In this document: piece by piece, positions 1 through 8,949 of the stretch
Layout of the letters: every line of letters starts with the position of its first letter
Position numbering within the stretch: the stretch's first letter is position 1
DNA from: Candidatus Solincola jinzensis
GTDB taxonomy: Bacteria; Actinomycetota; Geothermincolia; Geothermincolales; RBG-13-55-18
Length of the DNA stretch: 12,654 nt
Assembly (NCBI GenBank): GCA_015711875.1
Contig: JACVJG010000028.1
Coordinates: forward strand, 1-12,654
Direction of reading: 5' to 3'
Translations under genes and position numbers: made by a program
The notes under the pieces: model-generated
Told to the model about the DNA's origin: nothing
Seen by the model: the letters and a program-made list of their open reading frames with translations, nothing else
Databases searched by the model: none

Positions 1-878
1 GGCCCTCCACCGTATGCGCTTTCCATGAATTGCTGTTGGCATGGGGGGTGAACCGAAGCGGTTTAATACTGGCATTTGGGGGAGGTGTGGTCGGAGACAT
101 GGCTGGATTCGCGGCGGCGACCTACATGCGGGGGGTCGATTTCATCCAGATCCCCACAACCCTTATGGCGATGGTTGATTCCAGTATAGGGGGCAAGGTG
201 GGGGTTGATATGCCAAGCGTGAAAAACGCCGTGGGTACTTTCCACCAGCCGGTGGCAGTTATCAGTGATACCGAAATGCTATCCACTCTTCCAAGGAGGG
301 ACCTGGTGAGCGGCTTGGCGGAGGTTATCAAATATGGATTGTTGTATGACGCGGATATCCTAACGTTAAAAGGCGGATGGGAGGGGTGGGCAAGGATCAC
401 AGAGTGGGAGAGAGAGGAGATAATCGCAAAGTGTGTCCGACTCAAAGCCGCTGTGGTGGAAAAGGATGAAAAGGACTTATCGGGAGAAAGGGCGATATTA
501 AACTATGGGCACACCTTCGGGCATGCCCTTGAGTCGGCAACCGGATACTCTTTGTTTCGGCATGGTGAGGCAGTCGCCGTTGGAATGATCATGGCCGCGA
601 GGTTGGCGGAGAAGTCGGGAGTGGCTGAGACAGCCTTACTTGAATTGCATATAGATAGACTGTATCCGCTTCTGGAAGAAGTGCCTATACGGCATGACAT
701 CGACGCTGAAGCTGTGTTATGCGCCATGTATGCCGATAAAAAGAGGGACAGCAGCATGAAATACGTGCTTCTTGAAAGTCCGCAACAGCCGCTGTTAGCA
801 AGTGGCATCAAAGACGAACTGGTCATCGAGGCCATAAGAGAGACTCTAAACGAGTTGCAAGGCAGATGCTGTAGATGA
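1..878 (+). CDS. aroB: 3-dehydroquinate synthase, 5' end outside window
   Basis: Converts DAHP to 3-dehydroquinate, the second step of the shikimate pathway, in the cytoplasm with NAD and a divalent metal. The reading frame is open from the first full codon at base 3, so the true start lies upstream; about 291 residues are visible of a usual 350-370. Visible family motifs are the NAD-binding GGGVVGDMAGF, then PTTLMAMVDSSIGGK, SGLAEVIKYG, NYGHTFGHALE and RHGEAV. By comparison with known AroB structures the metal ligands should be the Glu of GLAEV (visible residue 107), the first His of GHTFGH (170) and the His of RHGEA (187). All are present, so the enzyme looks intact. It ends at TGA 876-878, 78 bases before aroQ, consistent with one shikimate operon. 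G+C is lower here than in the efp-nusB end. An internal TTG at base 30 is not a real start because conserved sequence continues upstream of it. Confidence 0.96.
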   Translation, partial: PSTVCAFHELLLAWGVNRSGLILAFGGGVVGDMAGFAAATYMRGVDFIQIPTTLMAMVDSSIGGKVGVDMPSVKNAVGTFHQPVAVISDTEMLSTLPRRDLVSGLAEVIKYGLLYDADILTLKGGWEGWARITEWEREEIIAKCVRLKAAVVEKDEKDLSGERAILNYGHTFGHALESATGYSLFRHGEAVAVGMIMAARLAEKSGVAETALLELHIDRLYPLLEEVPIRHDIDAEAVLCAMYADKKRDSSMKYVLLESPQQPLLASGIKDELVIEAIRETLNELQGRCCR

Positions 879-956: not shown

Positions 957-1391
957 ATGACGAAGATAGCGGTGGTGAATGGACCAAATCTCAATCTCCT
1001 GGGAGAAAGGGAGCCGCACATTTACGGGGATATAGCCTGGGAGGAGATAAAGGAAGGGTTAGTGAAGATAGCGAAAACCCATAATGTTGATCTTGAGTTC
1101 TTTCAGAGTAACCACGAGGGCGCTATCGTTGATTACCTGCAAGGGCTGCGCGGAAGGGTAAAGGCCCTGATAATCAACCCCGGTGCCCTTACTCATTACT
1201 CTTATGCCCTAAGGGATACACTTGCCATGCTGGATATGCCTAAGATCGAGGTGCATATAACAAATATAATGGGTCGTGAGGATTGGAGGGCTCGCTCCGT
1301 CATCGCACCGGTAGTGCTGGGGACTATAGCCGGCCTGGGAGGAGACGTATATCGGCTTGCGCTTGAGTATTTACTTGAGATGGGTAGATAG
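957..1391 (+). CDS. aroQ: type II 3-dehydroquinate dehydratase
   Basis: Dehydrates 3-dehydroquinate to 3-dehydroshikimate, the step after AroB, through an enolate intermediate; the family forms dodecamers of small flavodoxin-like subunits. At 144 aa the length is typical. The N-terminal signature VVNGPNLNLLGEREP is followed by the catalytic Tyr23 (HIYG), with Arg18 on the mobile active-site loop. Further active-site features are FFQSNHEG (48-55), Asn74 in INPGA, and Glu98 and His100 in IEVHITN. The usual SNI triad is TNI here, a conservative change. The ATG at 957 places the first strand exactly where the family begins. The preceding purine-rich stretch (gaggtaaaggcgg) is somewhat distant for a Shine-Dalgarno site. 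It follows aroB in the same direction. No U-tract terminator is seen directly after the stop; the non-coding region that follows holds other structures. Confidence 0.97.
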   Translation: MTKIAVVNGPNLNLLGEREPHIYGDIAWEEIKEGLVKIAKTHNVDLEFFQSNHEGAIVDYLQGLRGRVKALIINPGALTHYSYALRDTLAMLDMPKIEVHITNIMGREDWRARSVIAPVVLGTIAGLGGDVYRLALEYLLEMGR

Positions 1392-1859: not shown

Positions 1860-2399
1860 ATGCCAAGGAGGCGTTTCATCCGTCAGCAATCGGGCTTCAC
1901 GATTATCGAGCTCGCGGTATCCGTCCTCCTGATTGGCATCTCAATCGCTATTGTGACTCTGACTTATGGCCATTCCCGCAACGGCATGCTCATAAAAAGT
2001 GGCGCTGATGAGGTAAAAGGCCTCATGAACAGAGCATATAACATAGCCATGCAAGAGGGGGTAGATGTTTATCTCCAGTTCTGGGGCTCGAGTGGCAGCC
2101 ACCCCAATCGTTGCGCGATCTACCGCGTTTATCCTGGAGGAACAGACGAGAGAGCGGACGACGAACCAACCGAACCGCCACCACCAGGCGTTTCCGCTGA
2201 TAAGGATGGAGAAGGGCACTATTGGTTCAAGATCGCAGGTGGAGCGGCTGCCGTTCAGTCTCCCGTGACCCTTCTCTTCCGCAGGGAGGGTGCTATGGTC
2301 ACGGTAAGCAGTGTTAGCGGTGGCATGAGCGTAACCATCAACGTATCCGGCTTAACCCGCACTATTACCGTAAACGATAGGGGAGATATAAGCTCCTGA
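1860..2399 (+). CDS. FimT/GspH-like type IV prepilin
   Basis: Small pilin-like protein of the FimT/GspH class, expected in the inner membrane and in the pilus or its tip complex. From the ATG at 1860 the leader is 12 residues (MPRRRFIRQQSG), basic and of usual length. A prepilin-peptidase site follows, Gly12 before Phe13-Thr-Ile-Ile-Glu17, with Glu at mature position 5. The hydrophobic helix runs to about residue 37. A beta-rich body follows, with a proline-rich loop (PTEPPPPG), and ends in TRTITVNDRGDIS, which resembles the C-terminal strand of GspH/FimT domains. In-frame ATGs at 1794 and 1806 would add 22 or 18 non-basic residues; I prefer 1860 on leader length, although its Shine-Dalgarno (taggtg) is weak and close. 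It is the first gene of a four-pilin operon, with 19 bases to the next start. The pilin class is clear; its exact role is inferred. Confidence 0.85.
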   Translation: MPRRRFIRQQSGFTIIELAVSVLLIGISIAIVTLTYGHSRNGMLIKSGADEVKGLMNRAYNIAMQEGVDVYLQFWGSSGSHPNRCAIYRVYPGGTDERADDEPTEPPPPGVSADKDGEGHYWFKIAGGAAAVQSPVTLLFRREGAMVTVSSVSGGMSVTINVSGLTRTITVNDRGDISS

Positions 2400-2406
2400 C
2401 GTGCGA

Positions 2407-2413
2407 GGGAGGG
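2407..2413 (+). promoter_or_regulatory. Shine-Dalgarno site that fixes the PilV-like start
   Basis: GGGAGGG sits five bases before the ATG at 2419. It lies inside the reading frame opened by the GTG at 2401, so 2419 is the better start. Confidence 0.7.
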
Positions 2414-2418
2414 AAAGC

Positions 2419-5115
2419 ATGCGGTCCCATGATGCCGTAAAGGCAATAGGCAGGAAGCTTACCCGGGAGGAAGGCTTCTCGCTCGCCGAGGTGATGATGG
2501 CGATGGTTATCCTCGCCATGGCCGTCTTTCCCATGGTGGGGATGTTCGACGGCGCTTTCCGCGTTTCCATGGCCGCATCCGATATCAATCTCACTGCGGA
2601 ATGCCTGCAACGCTATTCGGAAATGGCGCGTAGCACCCCCTTTTACGTCGCGCATGACGAAAGCAACGCGACCACACCGCTTGACTTCGATGACTTTTAC
2701 TGGGGTTCGCGATCTCCCGTGACCACCAACAACTGGACAAACGCCCCCCGAGTTACCGTGAAGCCATTCAACGCCGAGCCCTACCCCAGCATGCAGGTGA
2801 CCATAAAGATGGCCTTCGTCGACGACGAGCTGGTGGAAGGGAGAACCCTCGAGCAGGCCGCTAATCTGACGGGCATGAGCCCGGACTGGGGGCCCATGAA
2901 ACTATACGGATACGATCGCCCAAAGAGCAACACTGGAAAAGTGCTTACGCTGATTCTTTTCGAGGTCATGGTCACCACTAGAAGCGGGTATACTTCAACC
3001 AACACCGAGCTTTACGCCTCGCCCACGGACATGGTCGCAAACGTATATATAGACCGGGTGGTCAATGTCTCATCCGATGCCACCAAAAAAGGCACGCGCT
3101 ACAACGCATATAACGAATGCATAAGCGCTCCACACACCAAGAACAGCATAACCATACGCGCTTATGGCGAGGGGTTTACGCAATCGGATCTGGACGCTGG
3201 CCTGGTGAGCGTGAAGCTGGTGCGCGTGGAGGACACGGACATAGAGCTGAAGAACATGTCCTTCGGCATGGATGGCAACGAAGCCTACATCCAGGGCACC
3301 ATAGACCTTAACGACAACAATGGCTCAGAGGAGCCTTGGGGCCCCAAATACCGCATGCCGGGATACTGGCATGCCTGGCTGGTGGTCAACCACGTCATCT
3401 CGGTGCGCAACAACATCTTCGTGGTGGAATACCCGGTGCCCGTCTACCATTCGCCCGGCTCCGACTTCAATGATTCCAGCGGAGACAAGCAGGGGCTGGA
3501 GAGTGCTACCGACGAGGTATTGACCCTCACCATGGTCGATTACGTTACGGACCTGGTGCCCGAGAACTATCCGAACCCCGGTATAGGGGCGGTGATACAG
3601 CTTGTGCATACCACATCGGATAACGGGGTGCCTATAGATACCATCACGGGGAAAAACCTCACCATTAGTCCTTCCACACAGAAGGGGTACACCACGGGGC
3701 TCACGGTAAGCGCGCACTTCGATTTCACCGGACACATAGGAGGCAACTACATGGTGCGCGTGATCAACTGCATCGACCGCGCCACACCCTCCAAGGACGT
3801 TATGGGCAATACGTATTTCGAGCTAACTACAGGTCCCTATTACTATCTGGAAGGCCCTCCGGCGGTAAACGAGGTTTACGTGTACGAGGAGACGCCGGTT
3901 ACGGCGAGCCCAAGGCATTTCGTTTACGATGACCGTGGCTACACATATACTCTGGAGATCAAGGGCTACAACTTCGATAACCTCATAGCTGCGGCGGATG
4001 TGAAGCTGGGCATAGGGGGAAATACCTCCGATGACCCGCCCAGCGGGGCTGTAAATGAGATATCGCCTTTGACCGTGACCTGGGTCGACTCCCAGACCCT
4101 GCGGGCGGTGTTCGACTTCCACGAGGACGCTTCTGGCAACGAGGTTGTGGAGGAAACGGAACGCGGCGTTTATTGGCTGTGGGTCAGGAACAGCAACGGT
4201 TTTGGCAAGGTGTTGAATCCAGCCCTCGATATTCGCGCTCCCGCACCGGTTATATACGATTACGACATAAAGACATACGGGCTGTGGCAGAACTATTACA
4301 ACGTGGGAATAGATCTGGTGGGTGAGTGCTTCGACGTAGACGAGGTTTCAGGGACTTATTATTTCGATGTTATGATCAAGGAAAAGACGGACCCGGTCAA
4401 CGACTGGCTGGCCACGGAAGGGCTCGATGACCCCACGGCATCGGATTTCGGGAGGAAAGCGACCTGTGCCCTCAACCTGATAGATTGCGACGCCGGCGAC
4501 TGGGAGCTTTACGCCAAGTCCATGCCCTCGGGGGCGACCGATAGCGGTTATACCGATATCATAAGCGGCGATACCTATATTACCTATCTACCGGTGACCG
4601 TGGGCACTCCCACCCTCCTCACCAACGGGGTCCCCACGGCGTCAGAGCCCTGGTCGGTGAAGGTGAAATCTCATTACATGAACTCAAATGCAGCAGGGGA
4701 GTGGCCCCCTGGTTGGAGCGATTGGCTGGAGAGCACGGAGGGTGCCGGCAGCCAGGCGGTAGTGTACGAGACTGATGACGGTCGCTCCCAGCCTCAGAAC
4801 CGCACCAGAGGAGAGATGTTCTTCGTGGAGCTTCGCGGCATGGGCTTCAACAAGGGCACGGTAAACATTCAGTGCCAGAACGATCATGGTGAGGATACAG
4901 ACGGCATGGACGAGACCTGGACAAACGTTCCGGTCCTCACGGACAGGGCGAACGTGAAGGTATGGATCGCGATGCAGGCAAGCGACGCAAAGCGAACCGG
5001 ACCTCACCAGAAGGATGATGGGAGCGCCAATCCCATCAGAATAAAGATAAAGAACAACGTCAACAACAAGTGGTCAGACCTTTTCAACAACCGCATCAGG
5101 GTGAGGTATCCGTGA
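2419..5115 (+). CDS. giant PilV-like prepilin with repeated Ig/TIG-like modules
   Basis: 898-residue protein with a type IV pilin N-terminus: 19-residue leader ending in TREEG, then Phe20-Ser-Leu-Ala-Glu24 and a hydrophobic helix to about residue 44. Ordinary PilV-like minor pilins are some 120-250 aa. A pilin-like section (about 45-235) follows, then beta-rich units sharing a short signature of hydrophobic strand, Gly, two residues, Phe: ITIRAYGEGF (from 244), YTLEIKGYNF (within 481-604), VGIDLVGECF (within 609-728) and FFVELRGMGF (within 793-898). A looser unit lies around 380-475. This pattern resembles IPT/TIG immunoglobulin-like folds, but the assignment is from eye-matched motifs. ATG 2419 has a strong GGGAGGG site. 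It is second in the pilin operon, 16 bases before the PilW-like gene. The likely role is an extended surface arm for adhesion or ligand binding on the pilus. Almost no cysteines, so no disulphide pattern is evident. Confidence 0.85.
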   Translation: MRSHDAVKAIGRKLTREEGFSLAEVMMAMVILAMAVFPMVGMFDGAFRVSMAASDINLTAECLQRYSEMARSTPFYVAHDESNATTPLDFDDFYWGSRSPVTTNNWTNAPRVTVKPFNAEPYPSMQVTIKMAFVDDELVEGRTLEQAANLTGMSPDWGPMKLYGYDRPKSNTGKVLTLILFEVMVTTRSGYTSTNTELYASPTDMVANVYIDRVVNVSSDATKKGTRYNAYNECISAPHTKNSITIRAYGEGFTQSDLDAGLVSVKLVRVEDTDIELKNMSFGMDGNEAYIQGTIDLNDNNGSEEPWGPKYRMPGYWHAWLVVNHVISVRNNIFVVEYPVPVYHSPGSDFNDSSGDKQGLESATDEVLTLTMVDYVTDLVPENYPNPGIGAVIQLVHTTSDNGVPIDTITGKNLTISPSTQKGYTTGLTVSAHFDFTGHIGGNYMVRVINCIDRATPSKDVMGNTYFELTTGPYYYLEGPPAVNEVYVYEETPVTASPRHFVYDDRGYTYTLEIKGYNFDNLIAAADVKLGIGGNTSDDPPSGAVNEISPLTVTWVDSQTLRAVFDFHEDASGNEVVEETERGVYWLWVRNSNGFGKVLNPALDIRAPAPVIYDYDIKTYGLWQNYYNVGIDLVGECFDVDEVSGTYYFDVMIKEKTDPVNDWLATEGLDDPTASDFGRKATCALNLIDCDAGDWELYAKSMPSGATDSGYTDIISGDTYITYLPVTVGTPTLLTNGVPTASEPWSVKVKSHYMNSNAAGEWPPGWSDWLESTEGAGSQAVVYETDDGRSQPQNRTRGEMFFVELRGMGFNKGTVNIQCQNDHGEDTDGMDETWTNVPVLTDRANVKVWIAMQASDAKRTGPHQKDDGSANPIRIKIKNNVNNKWSDLFNNRIRVRYP

Positions 5116-5131
5116 GGCGAGGGGGGTCGAG

Positions 5132-5767
5132 ATGAAAGGCCTTATGGGAAGGCGGGAAAAGCGAACGTCTCGCACGAGACGTTTCTCCTGCCGGGATTCA
5201 CGTCCCTCGGTACTAAAGGAAACATTCGCTTCCCATGCACAGGATAAACGAACGGCGAGAGAGGAAGGCTTTACCCTGGTAGAGATGCTCATAGCCTTTC
5301 TGATCCTATCGTTCGTGGTATACGCGGCCTTCAACATGCTGGATGTGCAGATAAAGGCCAGTGGCGTATATGCCGCCAAATCGGAACTCAGCCAGGAGCT
5401 GAGGGAAACAGCTACCACCATGGTGGACCAGTTGAGGGTGGCATATTCTTTTACCACCGCTGATACCGCGAACGTGGCTTTCACGGCGTATTTGACCGGC
5501 ACATCTCAGCTATATAATGTCCAGTTCTTCCTGCAGGGAACGGATCTGATCCACCGCGCAAGCACAGGAGCGCTAGGGCCCTCCGACGACCGGGTTCTGG
5601 CAAGTGGCGTGACCGGGTTGAGGTTCTTGTATTACGATGCGGCAGGTAGTGCGCTGTCTACCCCTGTTTCCAACCTTGCATCAATAGCCAAGGTGGAGAT
5701 AGAGCTCAGCATGAAGGTGTCTGGCATCGAAGGGACGGTAAAGACCGTGGCCAGGATGAGGAAATAG
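5132..5767 (+). CDS. PilW-like type IV prepilin with an unusually long leader
   Basis: 211-residue prepilin. The peptidase site is Gly46 before Phe47-Thr-Leu-Val-Glu51, followed by a hydrophobic helix to about residue 70 and a mature protein of about 165 aa. SELSQELRETATTMVDQLR after the helix is typical of PilW/GspJ-like N-terminal helices, and the rest looks beta-rich (VQFFLQGTDLIHR, GLRFLYYDAAG, KVEIELSMKV). The leader is 46 residues, highly basic and rich in Arg. No in-frame ATG, GTG or TTG lies between codon 5 and the cleavage site, so a short leader is not available. The start at 5132 has a good G-rich Shine-Dalgarno (gaggggggtc). DNA in the leader contains a perfect 20-base dyad (5164-5183). 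It is third in the operon, with 49 bases before the PilX-like gene. Expected to join the minor-pilin tip complex. Confidence 0.83.
   Translation: MKGLMGRREKRTSRTRRFSCRDSRPSVLKETFASHAQDKRTAREEGFTLVEMLIAFLILSFVVYAAFNMLDVQIKASGVYAAKSELSQELRETATTMVDQLRVAYSFTTADTANVAFTAYLTGTSQLYNVQFFLQGTDLIHRASTGALGPSDDRVLASGVTGLRFLYYDAAGSALSTPVSNLASIAKVEIELSMKVSGIEGTVKTVARMRK
5164..5183. repeat. perfect inverted repeat inside the PilW-like leader
   Basis: AACGTCTCG and CGAGACGTT flank a two-base centre (CA), giving nine matching positions per arm. It lies 32 bases after the start codon of the PilW-like gene, in the segment coding the Arg-rich leader, and is followed by TTCTCC. In RNA it could form a hairpin in the early coding region and modulate translation or processing between the PilV-like and PilW-like genes. 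It could also be a by-product of Arg-rich coding. Confidence 0.5.
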
Positions 5768-5816
5768 GCGAGGAGCGGAGATAAGGAACTCCGGTTAGCG
5801 CTGGGAGTGGTCTAAG

Positions 5817-8156
5817 ATGAAAGCGAAAGGGTCACGATTGCGGCGCCAAAAGGGATTTTTTGGCATTGCCGGCGGCAGGTCGGTAATCCATGGCCGCCAA
5901 GAAGGCTTTGCCATGATCTTCGTTATTTTCACCATCATGGTTCTCGGCATACTGGGAGCCCTGGTTCTCCTCTATACGACCTATGCTCTTCGCAGCGCCA
6001 CCGGCGTGACTCCTGCGTCGAGGGCGCACGCTGCCGCCGAGGCGGGGCTGGATGTCGTCCATGCCATGCTGGCGGCAGGGGATATCACCGGCACCACGAC
6101 TGGTATAACCGGTAGCGTGTGGAACGGCAACGGCACCTATACCGTGGATGTGGTCAAGAACCCCGACATGGGCGACGGAGATCCCTACGACTGGCTGGTT
6201 ACCTCCTCGGGCACCTATACCGCCAGTATCGAAGGCGTGACGCGAACCTTTTACCGCACCTTGGAGGAGGTCATTTCCTTCGCCGGCGGGCATTATTACA
6301 GCGCTCTTGACTACGTGCTCTTCTCCAAAGAGGGAAGCGTAAAATTCAACCTAGGAGGCAGTCTCCTGCAGGTGGGAGGAATCCTTATAGACGGCAGCGT
6401 ATACGCAGGAAAGGACGTCGAGCTCCAGAACCAGGCGCGTCTGGCAGCTGGTACTAATTTCGAGATAAGGGGGGACGTGGTAACAGAGCGTGGCGACATC
6501 ATCGTACGCGAGCTGAACGTAGCCCTTGCGGCCTCCACGGTCAGGCTGAACGGGAACCTATACAGCGGTATTCTGGCACGGCCAGGCGATACCGGTGGAG
6601 GGGTGTTGCTGGAGACAAGAGTGGGTATAGCCGGAGGGGGAAACATCGAGCTGACGGGAAGTATCGACTCCTCAGGCAGGTTGAGCGGCTACGATCAGGG
6701 CGTGAGGATGATCAACGAGGTATGGGTCGCTGGCGGGTGCACGACCCGCATCAACGGCACCATAAGGTCAAAAAAGGATGTGTACAGTGAGAACTCCGTG
6801 CGAATCGCCGCGGGATGGCCTTCCACAGAAGTAAACGGTACCATATATAGTGGTGAGGATGTAAACCTTCGCTCCGTGCTTAATATCGCAGGAGGCACGT
6901 TGAACAACAACGTTAACGGGAGCATTTACGCGGCGGGAAACATCGACCTGTACGCCTCTGGGACTTTTCTTGGGACTATGCAGAACCGCGTGGGCGGGGA
7001 CATCCAGGCCGGCGGCAACGTCAATATCACCCATGAGTTCGGCGTTGGCTGCGGCAACCCAAGCGGGTATGTCGTTGGAGGCAACATCTACGGCAACAGC
7101 GTGACCATAAGCGGTTCGCTCGGCGCAGCGGGAACGCTTTCCAACAGCATCGGCGGCAATATCTACGCGGATGGCCCATTCAGCCTTTCCAACCGTGTTA
7201 TCACCTTGGGGACGTCCAGAACTACAGTCGGTGGGAGTATCTACTCGGAGGGTAATCTCGCCATCAGCAACGAAGGCGGTTTCCTCTCTACGGCCACGAC
7301 GAGCATAAACGGCAGCCTGGCGGCGTTGAACCCGCCGTCCACAAACCCCGGCGTGTTTTCCGACGGGAGCATGACGCTTTCCTCAAACGAGGGCTTATTT
7401 GCGGATGCTTATGTTTCCATAAACAAAGACGCGAGGCGCTATGGTGGAAACCCAACCACGAGCGGCGATATCAGGGTTTCGGGGATAAAAACGGCACTTC
7501 CCTCGCCGTTCAGCGTGCCCGAGCCTAGCGATCCGAATGCCCCTAACGAGTACCGGGAGGTGCTGCTGCCGGAATGCGACTTCGACTATTACCGGGAAAT
7601 GGCCAAGGAGCAGGAGCTGCTAGATGGACAGGATCACTATTTCCCGACCCCGCCTGTTCCCAACCTGGACATCCCGGCAGGGGCTTTCAGCTCCAGCCTC
7701 TTCGTGGTGTTCGTCGAGGGGGACCTGAACGTGGGCACGGTTTCCGTCCCGGTGAATTGCAAGGCGGTTCTTGTGGCCACGGGAAACATCACCCTGCAGG
7801 AGGAGATGCGGCGAGAGGGCAGCGGGGACGCCGAGTTCCAGATCATAGCAGGCGGAAAGTTCCGCTATGACGCAGGGGGAAACCTCAGCATCGACGATAA
7901 CGACCAGTTCTTCATATACGCTGCTCATGAGAATTACAATCCCGTGAGCGACCCGGTAAGCGTCGTATACGAGATGGGCTGGTTTAAAAACCTCAAAGGT
8001 CAAATAACGGCGAGGGGGGATATAGTCCTCAACTCTAACGGATCGAGGTTCAGCTGGCTGCCGGGTTCCAATTACTCCGTGCATTATAAGAGCCCCTCGG
8101 TTCTGGGAGAGGCTTTCCGAATCCCCTTCAAGGTGAAGATGTGGAAGGAGAAGTAA
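5817..8156 (+). CDS. giant PilX-like prepilin carrying a beta-solenoid
   Basis: 779-residue prepilin. A 30-residue basic leader ends in GRQEG, then Phe31-Ala-Met-Ile-Phe35 starts a hydrophobic helix to about residue 55. Mature position 5 is Phe rather than Glu, as in many PilX and GspK proteins. HAAAEAGLDVV (about 79-89) matches the AAEAG motif of PilX N-termini. From about 190 to 505 the sequence is a repeat array with (V/I/L)(N/G)G(S/T/N)(I/L)Y motifs starting at residues 191, 244, 279, 312, 339, 366, 392, 420, 445, 471 and 497, so the later copies are 25-28 residues apart. This indicates a right- or left-handed beta-helix similar in style to bactofilin-type repeats. A Pro-rich linker (about 560-620) leads to a second beta-rich part with GNITLQEE and GGKFRYDAGGNL. 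The ATG at 5817 follows GGGAG nine bases upstream. It is the last gene of the operon. A pilus-tip role is inferred. Confidence 0.85.
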   Translation: MKAKGSRLRRQKGFFGIAGGRSVIHGRQEGFAMIFVIFTIMVLGILGALVLLYTTYALRSATGVTPASRAHAAAEAGLDVVHAMLAAGDITGTTTGITGSVWNGNGTYTVDVVKNPDMGDGDPYDWLVTSSGTYTASIEGVTRTFYRTLEEVISFAGGHYYSALDYVLFSKEGSVKFNLGGSLLQVGGILIDGSVYAGKDVELQNQARLAAGTNFEIRGDVVTERGDIIVRELNVALAASTVRLNGNLYSGILARPGDTGGGVLLETRVGIAGGGNIELTGSIDSSGRLSGYDQGVRMINEVWVAGGCTTRINGTIRSKKDVYSENSVRIAAGWPSTEVNGTIYSGEDVNLRSVLNIAGGTLNNNVNGSIYAAGNIDLYASGTFLGTMQNRVGGDIQAGGNVNITHEFGVGCGNPSGYVVGGNIYGNSVTISGSLGAAGTLSNSIGGNIYADGPFSLSNRVITLGTSRTTVGGSIYSEGNLAISNEGGFLSTATTSINGSLAALNPPSTNPGVFSDGSMTLSSNEGLFADAYVSINKDARRYGGNPTTSGDIRVSGIKTALPSPFSVPEPSDPNAPNEYREVLLPECDFDYYREMAKEQELLDGQDHYFPTPPVPNLDIPAGAFSSSLFVVFVEGDLNVGTVSVPVNCKAVLVATGNITLQEEMRREGSGDAEFQIIAGGKFRYDAGGNLSIDDNDQFFIYAAHENYNPVSDPVSVVYEMGWFKNLKGQITARGDIVLNSNGSRFSWLPGSNYSVHYKSPSVLGEAFRIPFKVKMWKEK

Positions 8157-8310: not shown

Positions 8311-8949
8311 ATGGCGGAGAGGAAGGTTCACGATTCCGAAACGGGGTACGACATAGAGCGGCTGAGGGTGGACAAGCCCCGCAGGGGTTACCCATGGTAC
8401 CTGATGCTGGTGGGTTTAGTGCTCATGTCATATTTCAGCATCAATATGATTATGAATTGCGTGTTCGCAGTGGACCTCTCGAGCGACGGGATGAGGGTGG
8501 TGCAGAGAGAGGCGATATACGACGATTCCGGAAACCTCGTAAGAGAACCTGAGGTGATCGTCCTGCAAGGGGTCTCGGGCTGGGTTGAGGGTTTCGCTCC
8601 CTGGCTCGCGGTGAACGGCTACATCATATCCCTGGGAGCATTGCTATTCGGTCTGGGATATGTCATGACGGAGAGAAAAAAGGATAAGCTTGAGGTCTCG
8701 CTCTTCAAGATGAGGATTCTGGGCTGTTACCTCTGCCTGCTGGCTCTGCTCATGCTGGCGCTGGGCCTGGACAGGGTGTTTTTCATTCCCCACGGGCCCA
8801 AAGAAGGCGTCCTTGATTGGATGGACTGGTACATACTGGAGTTCATGGCGCACTCTGTGTGGGTGGTGGTGCTTGCGGCGATGGGGACCTTTTTCCTCAA
8901 GATCAGGATGGTCGATGGCGGAAACGGTGCAATGCCGGCCGAAGCGTGA
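8311..8949 (+). CDS. unrecognised four-helix membrane protein
   Basis: 212-residue protein that I do not recognise. The N-terminus (1-27) is charged and hydrophilic. Hydrophobic segments fall at about 28-53, 97-119, 134-157 and 174-197, so four transmembrane helices are expected. A loop of about 43 residues lies between the first two (DLSSDGMRVVQREAIYDDSG) and the tail is short. With positive residues before the first helix (DKPRRG) and after the second (TERKKDK), both ends probably face the cytoplasm and the 54-95 loop lies outside. No catalytic or transport signature is visible. The start at 8311 has a clear GGAGAGG site five bases upstream. It has its own promoter-like sequence and is isolated from the pilin operon by a terminator, so a pilus function is not implied, though neighbourhood makes an accessory role possible. 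Confidence 0.78.
   Translation: MAERKVHDSETGYDIERLRVDKPRRGYPWYLMLVGLVLMSYFSINMIMNCVFAVDLSSDGMRVVQREAIYDDSGNLVREPEVIVLQGVSGWVEGFAPWLAVNGYIISLGALLFGLGYVMTERKKDKLEVSLFKMRILGCYLCLLALLMLALGLDRVFFIPHGPKEGVLDWMDWYILEFMAHSVWVVVLAAMGTFFLKIRMVDGGNGAMPAEA

Follow-up and report, generated by a model that had tools for sequence, protein, structure and literature searches.

We examined four consecutive genes (G1 to G4) in a 12,654-nucleotide stretch of the Candidatus Solincola jinzensis genome (contig JACVJG010000028.1), referred to below as the window. All four lie on the same strand, extend from position 1794 or 1860 (depending on the start assigned to G1) to 8156, and are separated by intergenic gaps of approximately 20, 16, and 50 bases. 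Each encodes a basic leader, a G/F prepilin site (the slash marks the point of cleavage) and a hydrophobic stretch, and all four open reading frames (ORFs) confirm the run of consecutive prepilins that an earlier note on this DNA had described. As that note also stated, two of the proteins are very large, and their predicted folds differ, with immunoglobulin (Ig)/IPT-like domains in G2 and a solenoid in G4. Coordinates and lengths in amino acids (aa) are collected in Table 1.

The earlier proposal that these genes follow the order FimT/GspH, PilV, PilW, PilX is borne out by family matches for the first three and by relatives for the fourth. G1 matches Pfam N_methyl (E 3.3e-5) and the NCBIfam model TIGR01708 GspH (33 bits, against a cut-off of 80), G2 matches N_methyl under the Pfam cut-off (E 8.3e-4) and a PilV-type NCBIfam model, and G3 matches N_methyl (E 1.1e-6) together with TIGR02523 PilV and TIGR01711 GspJ, both under cut-off. 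Save for the general prepilin domain model for G1 and G2, all NCBIfam scores for G1 to G3 fall under the curated cut-offs. G4 itself gave no family match in Pfam or NCBIfam; we assign it to PilX because its relatives match PilX_N (6 of the 24 aligned, best E 7.8e-6). Judged by protein comparison, an H-I-J-K set in the window is confirmed, with the putative subunit names resting on weak family matches for G1 to G3 and on relatives for G4. Alternative starts exist for two of the genes: ATG 1794 would extend G1 to 201 aa (1794-2399), and GTG 2401 would extend G2 to 904 aa, compared with 898 aa from ATG 2419, which is preceded by GAGGGAGG.

Table 1. Features of the window and of loci in related genomes. 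Positions without a label are those of the window; labels beginning with L, or with G and three digits, belong to relatives.
Feature	Position	Strand	Remarks
G1, putative H subunit, FimT/GspH-type minor prepilin	1860..2399	+	179 aa; site QQSG/FTIIE; Glu5 present
G2, putative I subunit, giant PilV/GspI-type prepilin	2419..5115	+	898 aa; site REEG/FSLAE; Glu5 present
G3, putative J subunit, PilW/GspJ-type minor prepilin	5132..5767	+	211 aa; site REEG/FTLVE; Glu5 present
G4, putative K subunit, giant PilX/GspK-type prepilin	5817..8156	+	779 aa; site RQEG/FAMIF; without Glu5
Tyrosine row at one rung position (G4 residues 196, 249, 371, 425, 450, 476)	6402..7244	+	conserved across 26 aligned rows
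aroB (3-dehydroquinate synthase)	3..878	+	named by sequence; 5' part beyond the window
aroQ (type II 3-dehydroquinase)	957..1391	+	named by sequence and position
G5, 212-aa membrane protein	8311..8949	+	downstream of the prepilin cluster
M24 peptidase gene, efp, Asp23-family gene, nusB		+	after G5, same strand as G1 to G4; efp and nusB named by sequence
pilB, pilT, pilC, and G4 of one relative	G002 55179, 56725, 58254-59234, 71368		example of pil linkage
Protein between pilO and aroC	L028 9444-10157; L030 9572-10273; L057 1189-1902; L065 15793-16557; L068 720-1427		233-254 aa
Extra PilB-type ATPases	L089 1900-5341; L090 3741-5420		away from the pil operon
Protein with actin-like motif	L084 3929-5032; L085 4107-5231; L086 1650-2735		361-374 aa
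Two four-prepilin sets of genome G026	L064 7387-12501; L065 7312-12071		
Four-gene sets adjoining peptidase and sigma-factor-like genes	L058 6660-12598; L059 8814-14830		
K-like N-terminal matches in larger frames	G006:C16:3374-3829; G017:C3:59386-59823		frames of 1,363 and 978 aa

Protein searches with G4 recovered 27 relatives (40-99% identity) and those with G2 recovered 19 (47-100%); the ones with names come from actinobacterial metagenome-assembled genomes (MAGs), one of them Candidatus Solincola sediminis. From these we built alignment A1 for G4 (26 rows, the window plus 25 of the 27 proteins, leaving out P0001 and P0021) and alignment A2 for G2 (19 rows, the window plus 18 of the 19 proteins, P0028 being the window's own). 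A GTDB genome scan with A1 found five loci, all in MAGs and two of them named Candidatus Solincola. NCBI places Candidatus Solincola in the actinobacterial class Candidatus Geothermincolia, where A1 matches 19 of 31 genomes and leaves 12 without a match. A protein search with a class-wide alignment, scoring only the 7,991 candidates that had most words in common with it, returned 29 proteins, 27 of them already known.

The clusters that we read number 18, comprising the window and those of 16 genomes (G026 contributes two). The gene order that the earlier note had read at a single locus is common to its relatives: all four prepilin genes are collinear and share one strand in 17 of the 18 clusters, and in L061 the contig stops short of the first gene. 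G4 is cut by a contig end in L069 and split into two frames in L032 (genome G005), and genomes G016, G020, and G025 gave fragments or another arrangement only. With the window proteins as tblastn queries, G2 and G4 were recovered in all 17 relative loci, G1 in 13 and G3 in 12; the remaining G1 and G3 genes were assigned by position, size, and prepilin site. Glu5 is missing from G4 in every one of the 18 clusters and is present in every G1, G2, and G3 read. Since the same four genes, order, and Glu5 pattern are found in relatives whose G2 and G4 are as little as ~25% identical, the cluster is more than a chance arrangement.

The two giants vary in size across the class, from 680 to 945 aa for G2 (the L061 copy may be cut) and from 482 to 810 aa for G4 in the 16 loci used for trees. 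Three deep groups, all supported at 100/100, are common to the G2 and G4 trees, which disagree at some weaker forks; the G4 tree was flagged for two of its three groups joining by long branches. The shared clades fit joint inheritance of the two genes. Their lengths have a rank correlation of 0.74 over 15 pairs (some G2 lengths differ by up to 16 aa from the tree set, depending on the start), which is not independent evidence because the lengths fall into the same three clades.

We then scanned 396 genomes sampled from the phylum with a 24-row G4 alignment (A3) and a 16-row G2 alignment (A4). A3 matches 66 genomes, of which 22 belong to the class and 44 do not; in the latter, no row extends into the C-terminal portion of the profile (534-743), and nearly all rows are confined to its first 210 positions. 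A4 matches 161 genomes; among the matches listed, a single row spans almost the full profile in 16 genomes, every one of which belongs to the class. Outside the class, the best A4 rows are ordinary PilV-size frames, and weaker rows include large frames matching the first 70-190 positions. Large prepilins are therefore not class-specific as such, given that frames of ~440-960 aa also occur outside the class, where they match just the first 70-210 profile positions of either giant. Near-full-length relatives of both giants occur in this sample only in Candidatus Geothermincolia, and the lineage restriction suggested earlier thus holds for both giant ectodomains.

Some arrangements within the class depart from this pattern (Table 1). 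Genome G026 has one four-prepilin set in the aro-pil setting, with a G2 of just 680 aa, and a second set that is unlinked, as if tips were exchangeable on one pilus machine. In L058 and L059 the four-gene set adjoins a peptidase gene and a sigma-factor-like gene, and a further prepilin-like gene (217-222 aa) lies upstream, the L058 copy of which has no Pfam match. K-like N-terminal matches also occur in larger frames in two class members.

The earlier note had correctly observed that the window holds no assembly ATPase, platform protein, or major pilin. The pilus machinery was examined in the genomes of five relatives (all MAGs), and pilus assembly genes, whose absence would have spoken against a pilus, were found in all five. 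Each genome encodes five or six T2SSE-type ATPases above the cut-off. T2SSF-domain matches number four per genome: one PilC-sized protein accounts for two of them, and the others belong to a pair of proteins that looks Tad-like by its arrangement. In four of the five, G4 is preceded, on its own contig and strand, by pilB, pilT, and pilC; in the fifth, the cluster contig is too short to judge linkage. The order in L028 is aroE-pilB-pilT-pilC-(small helix-turn-helix gene)-pilM-pilN-pilO-(237-aa unknown)-aroC-aroK-aroB-aroQ-G1, and L027, L029, and L030 agree with it for the genes visible among the listed ORFs, others being masked by overlapping ORFs on the opposite strand; in L029, two transporter-like genes separate pilT from pilC. 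Pfam matches in L028 confirm pilB, a second T2SSE ATPase, pilC, the helix-turn-helix protein, pilM, pilO, and aroB. The genes that we take to be those of PilT and PilN, as well as aroE, aroC, and aroK, were named from sequence, size, and position.

Elsewhere in the relatives' genomes we found short prepilins resembling major pilins (109-132 aa; three were tested by Pfam), and in G001 (L085), the genome in which it was sought, a Peptidase_A24 (prepilin peptidase) gene adjoins one of them. PilY1 (PF05567) was detected in none of 10 genomes, but also in none of 14 control genomes, so this search had no working control. Because the relatives carry the pil operon upstream, the missing ATPase, platform protein, and major pilin most likely reflect the edge of the window. 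The HIJK order, the Glu5 pattern, and the pil linkage in relatives together support the earlier view of a candidate tip-type set of minor pilins.

Other genes of the relatives' pil regions also drew attention. Several relatives encode, between pilO and aroC, a protein of 233-254 aa with one N-terminal hydrophobic segment; the L028 and L068 copies, the two that were tested, match no Pfam family, and the protein may take the place of PilP. Extra PilB-type ATPases lie away from the pil operon, one of them near a 373-aa prepilin, in contrast to the one PilC-sized platform protein and the Tad-like pair found per genome. In three relatives, a divergent gene beside the candidate major pilin gene encodes a protein of 361-374 aa with a start resembling an actin-like ATPase motif.

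The same survey bears on whether the giants could be parts of the short pseudopilus of a type II-like secretion system. HIJK is described as common to the pseudopilins of type II secretion (PMC10191384), and both the weak GspH match of G1 and the extra PilB-like ATPases elsewhere in the genomes could be read in this way. However, a secretin was found in none of the five relatives (6 of 14 control genomes were positive), the operon includes a PilT-type ATPase as well as PilM and PilO identified by Pfam, and the ectodomains look oversized for a pseudopilus retained in the wall. We regard a pseudopilus as highly improbable and set it aside, given the lack of a secretin in 5 of 5 genomes and the PilT-type ATPase in the operon.

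Structure predictions were made for single chains. G2 is modelled as a pilin helix followed by a chain of Ig/IPT-like beta domains. Its first Foldseek matches are animal proteins, and Ig-domain surface proteins, including S-layer proteins, the GhpA grappling hook, and PrgB, are also among the matches. The latter could point to an organ of contact or recognition, with the giants binding cells (kin, a syntrophic partner, or prey) rather than inert material, and the Myxococcus Kil pili with their adaptable tips are a described precedent (PMC12075869). Yet Ig folds are generic, the animal proteins come first and the best structural-alignment Z for G2 is 10.1, and no pointer to a partner was seen in the sequence; we consider a role of this kind decidedly unlikely.

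G4 is modelled as a pilin domain joined to a long beta-solenoid. Helices at residues 29-60 and 66-87 are followed by four strands (94-154), the beta-solenoid (~166-560), and a conserved C-terminal region (~573-779) that contains the last strand (772-778). Each giant would thus combine an N-terminal pilin moiety with domains that are not pilus-specific, which is the definition of a modular pilin, and the Ig-like arm and solenoid head imagined in the earlier note are supported as models. In a Foldseek search of PDB structures, the first match of G4 is the tapirin 4wa0 (E 7.2e-4), which the earlier note did not name, and the second is ComZ 6qvi (E 1.2e-3), whose likeness it had anticipated. The alignment with tapirin 6n2c covers residues 161-770, from the solenoid through the C-terminal region. 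ComZ is absent among the 50 matches listed by VIA-align for G4; single-sequence and profile searches of PDB sequences detected no relation of G4 to ComZ or tapirin, and profiles A1 and A3 found no tapirin chain at E values as high as 10.

The rungs of the solenoid carry a repeated motif, G-[SDN]-[IVL]-Y, with an aromatic residue in 7 of its 14 instances in the G4 of the window and in 156 of 354 instances over all rows, compared with 7% in shuffled solenoids (a rough control, as the motif was picked after viewing the sequence and shuffling destroys repeats). Six of the tyrosines form a row at one rung position: Tyr196 and Tyr476 occur in 26/26 rows, Tyr450 in 25/26, Tyr425 in all 24 ungapped rows, Tyr371 in 22 (plus one Phe), and Tyr249 in 21 (plus five Phe). 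Position 344 is variable (His, Tyr, Phe, and others).

Surface charge is informative about DNA uptake, a function that had been suggested by analogy with ComZ. Under this explanation, K would be a ComZ-type solenoid DNA receptor at the pilus tip, H or J would help, and DNA would be fed to ComEC. The second place of ComZ among the Foldseek matches would fit, ComZ too being a solenoid grafted on a GspK-like pilin (PMC6561018); moreover, ComEC occurs once in each of the five relatives, and the C-terminal tail of G3 is net positive in 14 of 18 sequences, by up to +5. The giants, however, are acidic, with ectodomain net charges of ~-25 for G4 and ~-51 for G2, and are negative in all 26 rows of A1 and all 19 rows of A2 (in a wider set, one of 24 G4 rows, L067, is positive at +7), whereas DNA-binding pilins are known to use lysines and arginines (PMC8897410). 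Unlike the DNA-uptake pilin FimT, G1 has no arginine-rich C-terminal tail: the pattern GR.R is present in the last 30 residues of 0 of 17 sequences, with tail charges of -2 to +3. The cluster is also linked to a pil operon with a PilT-type ATPase. The likeness to ComZ therefore stands, but DNA uptake, although possible, is not the function that we favor, and we judge it unlikely.

We think it fairly probable that G1 to G4 encode the tip-priming HIJK complex of a monoderm type IVa pilus, and that its giant I and K subunits are modular pilins forming a retractable adhesin. In this mechanism, prepilin peptidase would cut the prepilins after Gly, and H, I, and J, which carry Glu5, would be joined by K, which lacks it and would cap the complex. 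PilB and PilC would then add major pilin beneath the complex, so that both giants come to lie at the distal tip, from where PilT could retract them. The long Ig/IPT-like chain of the I subunit may serve as an arm and the long beta-solenoid of K as a head, and the two together may hold on to a solid surface or a polysaccharide, the cell walls of other organisms included, as an adhesin that can be retracted. That the subunits form a complex, that it lies at the tip, that it adheres, and what kind of ligand it binds are inferred from the features above; adhesion to a surface or polysaccharide is favored over DNA uptake on the basis of the tapirin match, the acidic surface, and the tyrosine row. 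Weighing against this interpretation are the positive tail of G3 and the finding that generic solenoids align better to G4 than tapirin or ComZ do. The interpretation given in the earlier note is, as a whole, partly supported.

A more specific proposal, which we hold to be doubtful, is that the K and I tip subunits constitute an adhesin (Ig arm and tapirin-like head) for plant or microbial polysaccharide that does the job of PilY1 in diderms, and that the tapirins of Caldicellulosiruptor, whose genes occupy the corresponding position next to their pil operon, descend from such a K subunit. If this were true, variation in solenoid length within the class would reflect different ligands.

The neighborhood of the prepilin cluster is conserved to varying degrees. 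The aroB gene of a relative (L028:11943-13049) matches DHQ_synthase/DHQS_C in Pfam, and in the relatives aroB is part of an aro block sitting between the pil operon and the minor pilins. We recovered aroQ in 13 of 17 relative loci by tblastn (49-73% identity), several kilobases from the cluster in L058 and L059. The gap between aroQ and G1 measures ~400-470 bases, and G+C over the surrounding 1-kilobase stretch is 0.47. Downstream, G5 has a homologue in 4 of 17 relative loci and is probably not part of the pilus tip.

Compared with known systems, the cluster shares with the type IVa HIJK sets (PilHIJK, FimU-PilVWX, GspHIJK) four adjacent prepilins in H-I-J-K order, a K without Glu5 and, as seen in relatives, linkage to pilB-pilT-pilC-pilM-pilO. 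The HIJK subunits are described as forming a complex at the pilus tip, with the one that lacks Glu5 as its cap (PMC10191384). The present cluster differs in the ectodomains of several hundred residues on I and K and in the absence of a secretin from the relatives' genomes.

For G4, tapirins gave the first Foldseek match and the long 6n2c alignment, and profile searches detected no sequence relation to them. The tapirin genes of Caldicellulosiruptor lie downstream of a type IV pilus operon. Tapirins are described as cellulose-binding, going by reference titles (PMC9933333, PMC10267330), and as located on S-layer glycoproteins and pili, according to a citing paper (PMC10267330). In Thermus thermophilus, the DNA-binding protein ComZ is described as a GspK-like pilin into which a solenoid is inserted; two lysines are implicated in the binding, and ComZ lies with pilA1-4 (PMC6561018). 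Like ComZ, G4 would be a GspK-like pilin with a large beta-solenoid; G4, in contrast, is acidic overall, has no profile-search relation to ComZ, and has a giant I partner.

By analogy, the closest working precedent is PilA-PilB-PilC of Streptococcus sanguinis. In that species HIJK is reported to be replaced by PilABC with two modular pilins (PMC10191384), which are modelled at the tip and described as binding glycans or host proteins in papers that also count more than 1,200 modular pilins in InterPro (PMC9934059, PMC8179133). Shared with our cluster would be a monoderm pilus and two large modular minor pilins thought to lie together at the tip as adhesins. In contrast, the full HIJK set is kept here, with I and K carrying the modules, and these modules are a predicted Ig chain and solenoid, compared with vWA and lectin modules in S. 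sanguinis.

We found no description of such a cluster in the literature searched for Geothermincolia or Solincola and pili (three papers on Solincola and pili, judged by their titles, concern other topics). The cluster is a combination of known elements: its HIJK set is complete, and two members of that set, I and K, are giant, predicted modular pilins. Modular minor pilins are known to make type IV pili specific grapples, and in the S. sanguinis case they replace HIJK; here, the full HIJK set is kept with modules on two members, in at least 16 of 31 genomes of a class known here from metagenome-assembled records. These proteins form a defined, expressible set for studying how two large arms are borne by one pilus tip, whether polysaccharide or DNA is the ligand of a solenoid K subunit, and whether tapirins originated from pilins.

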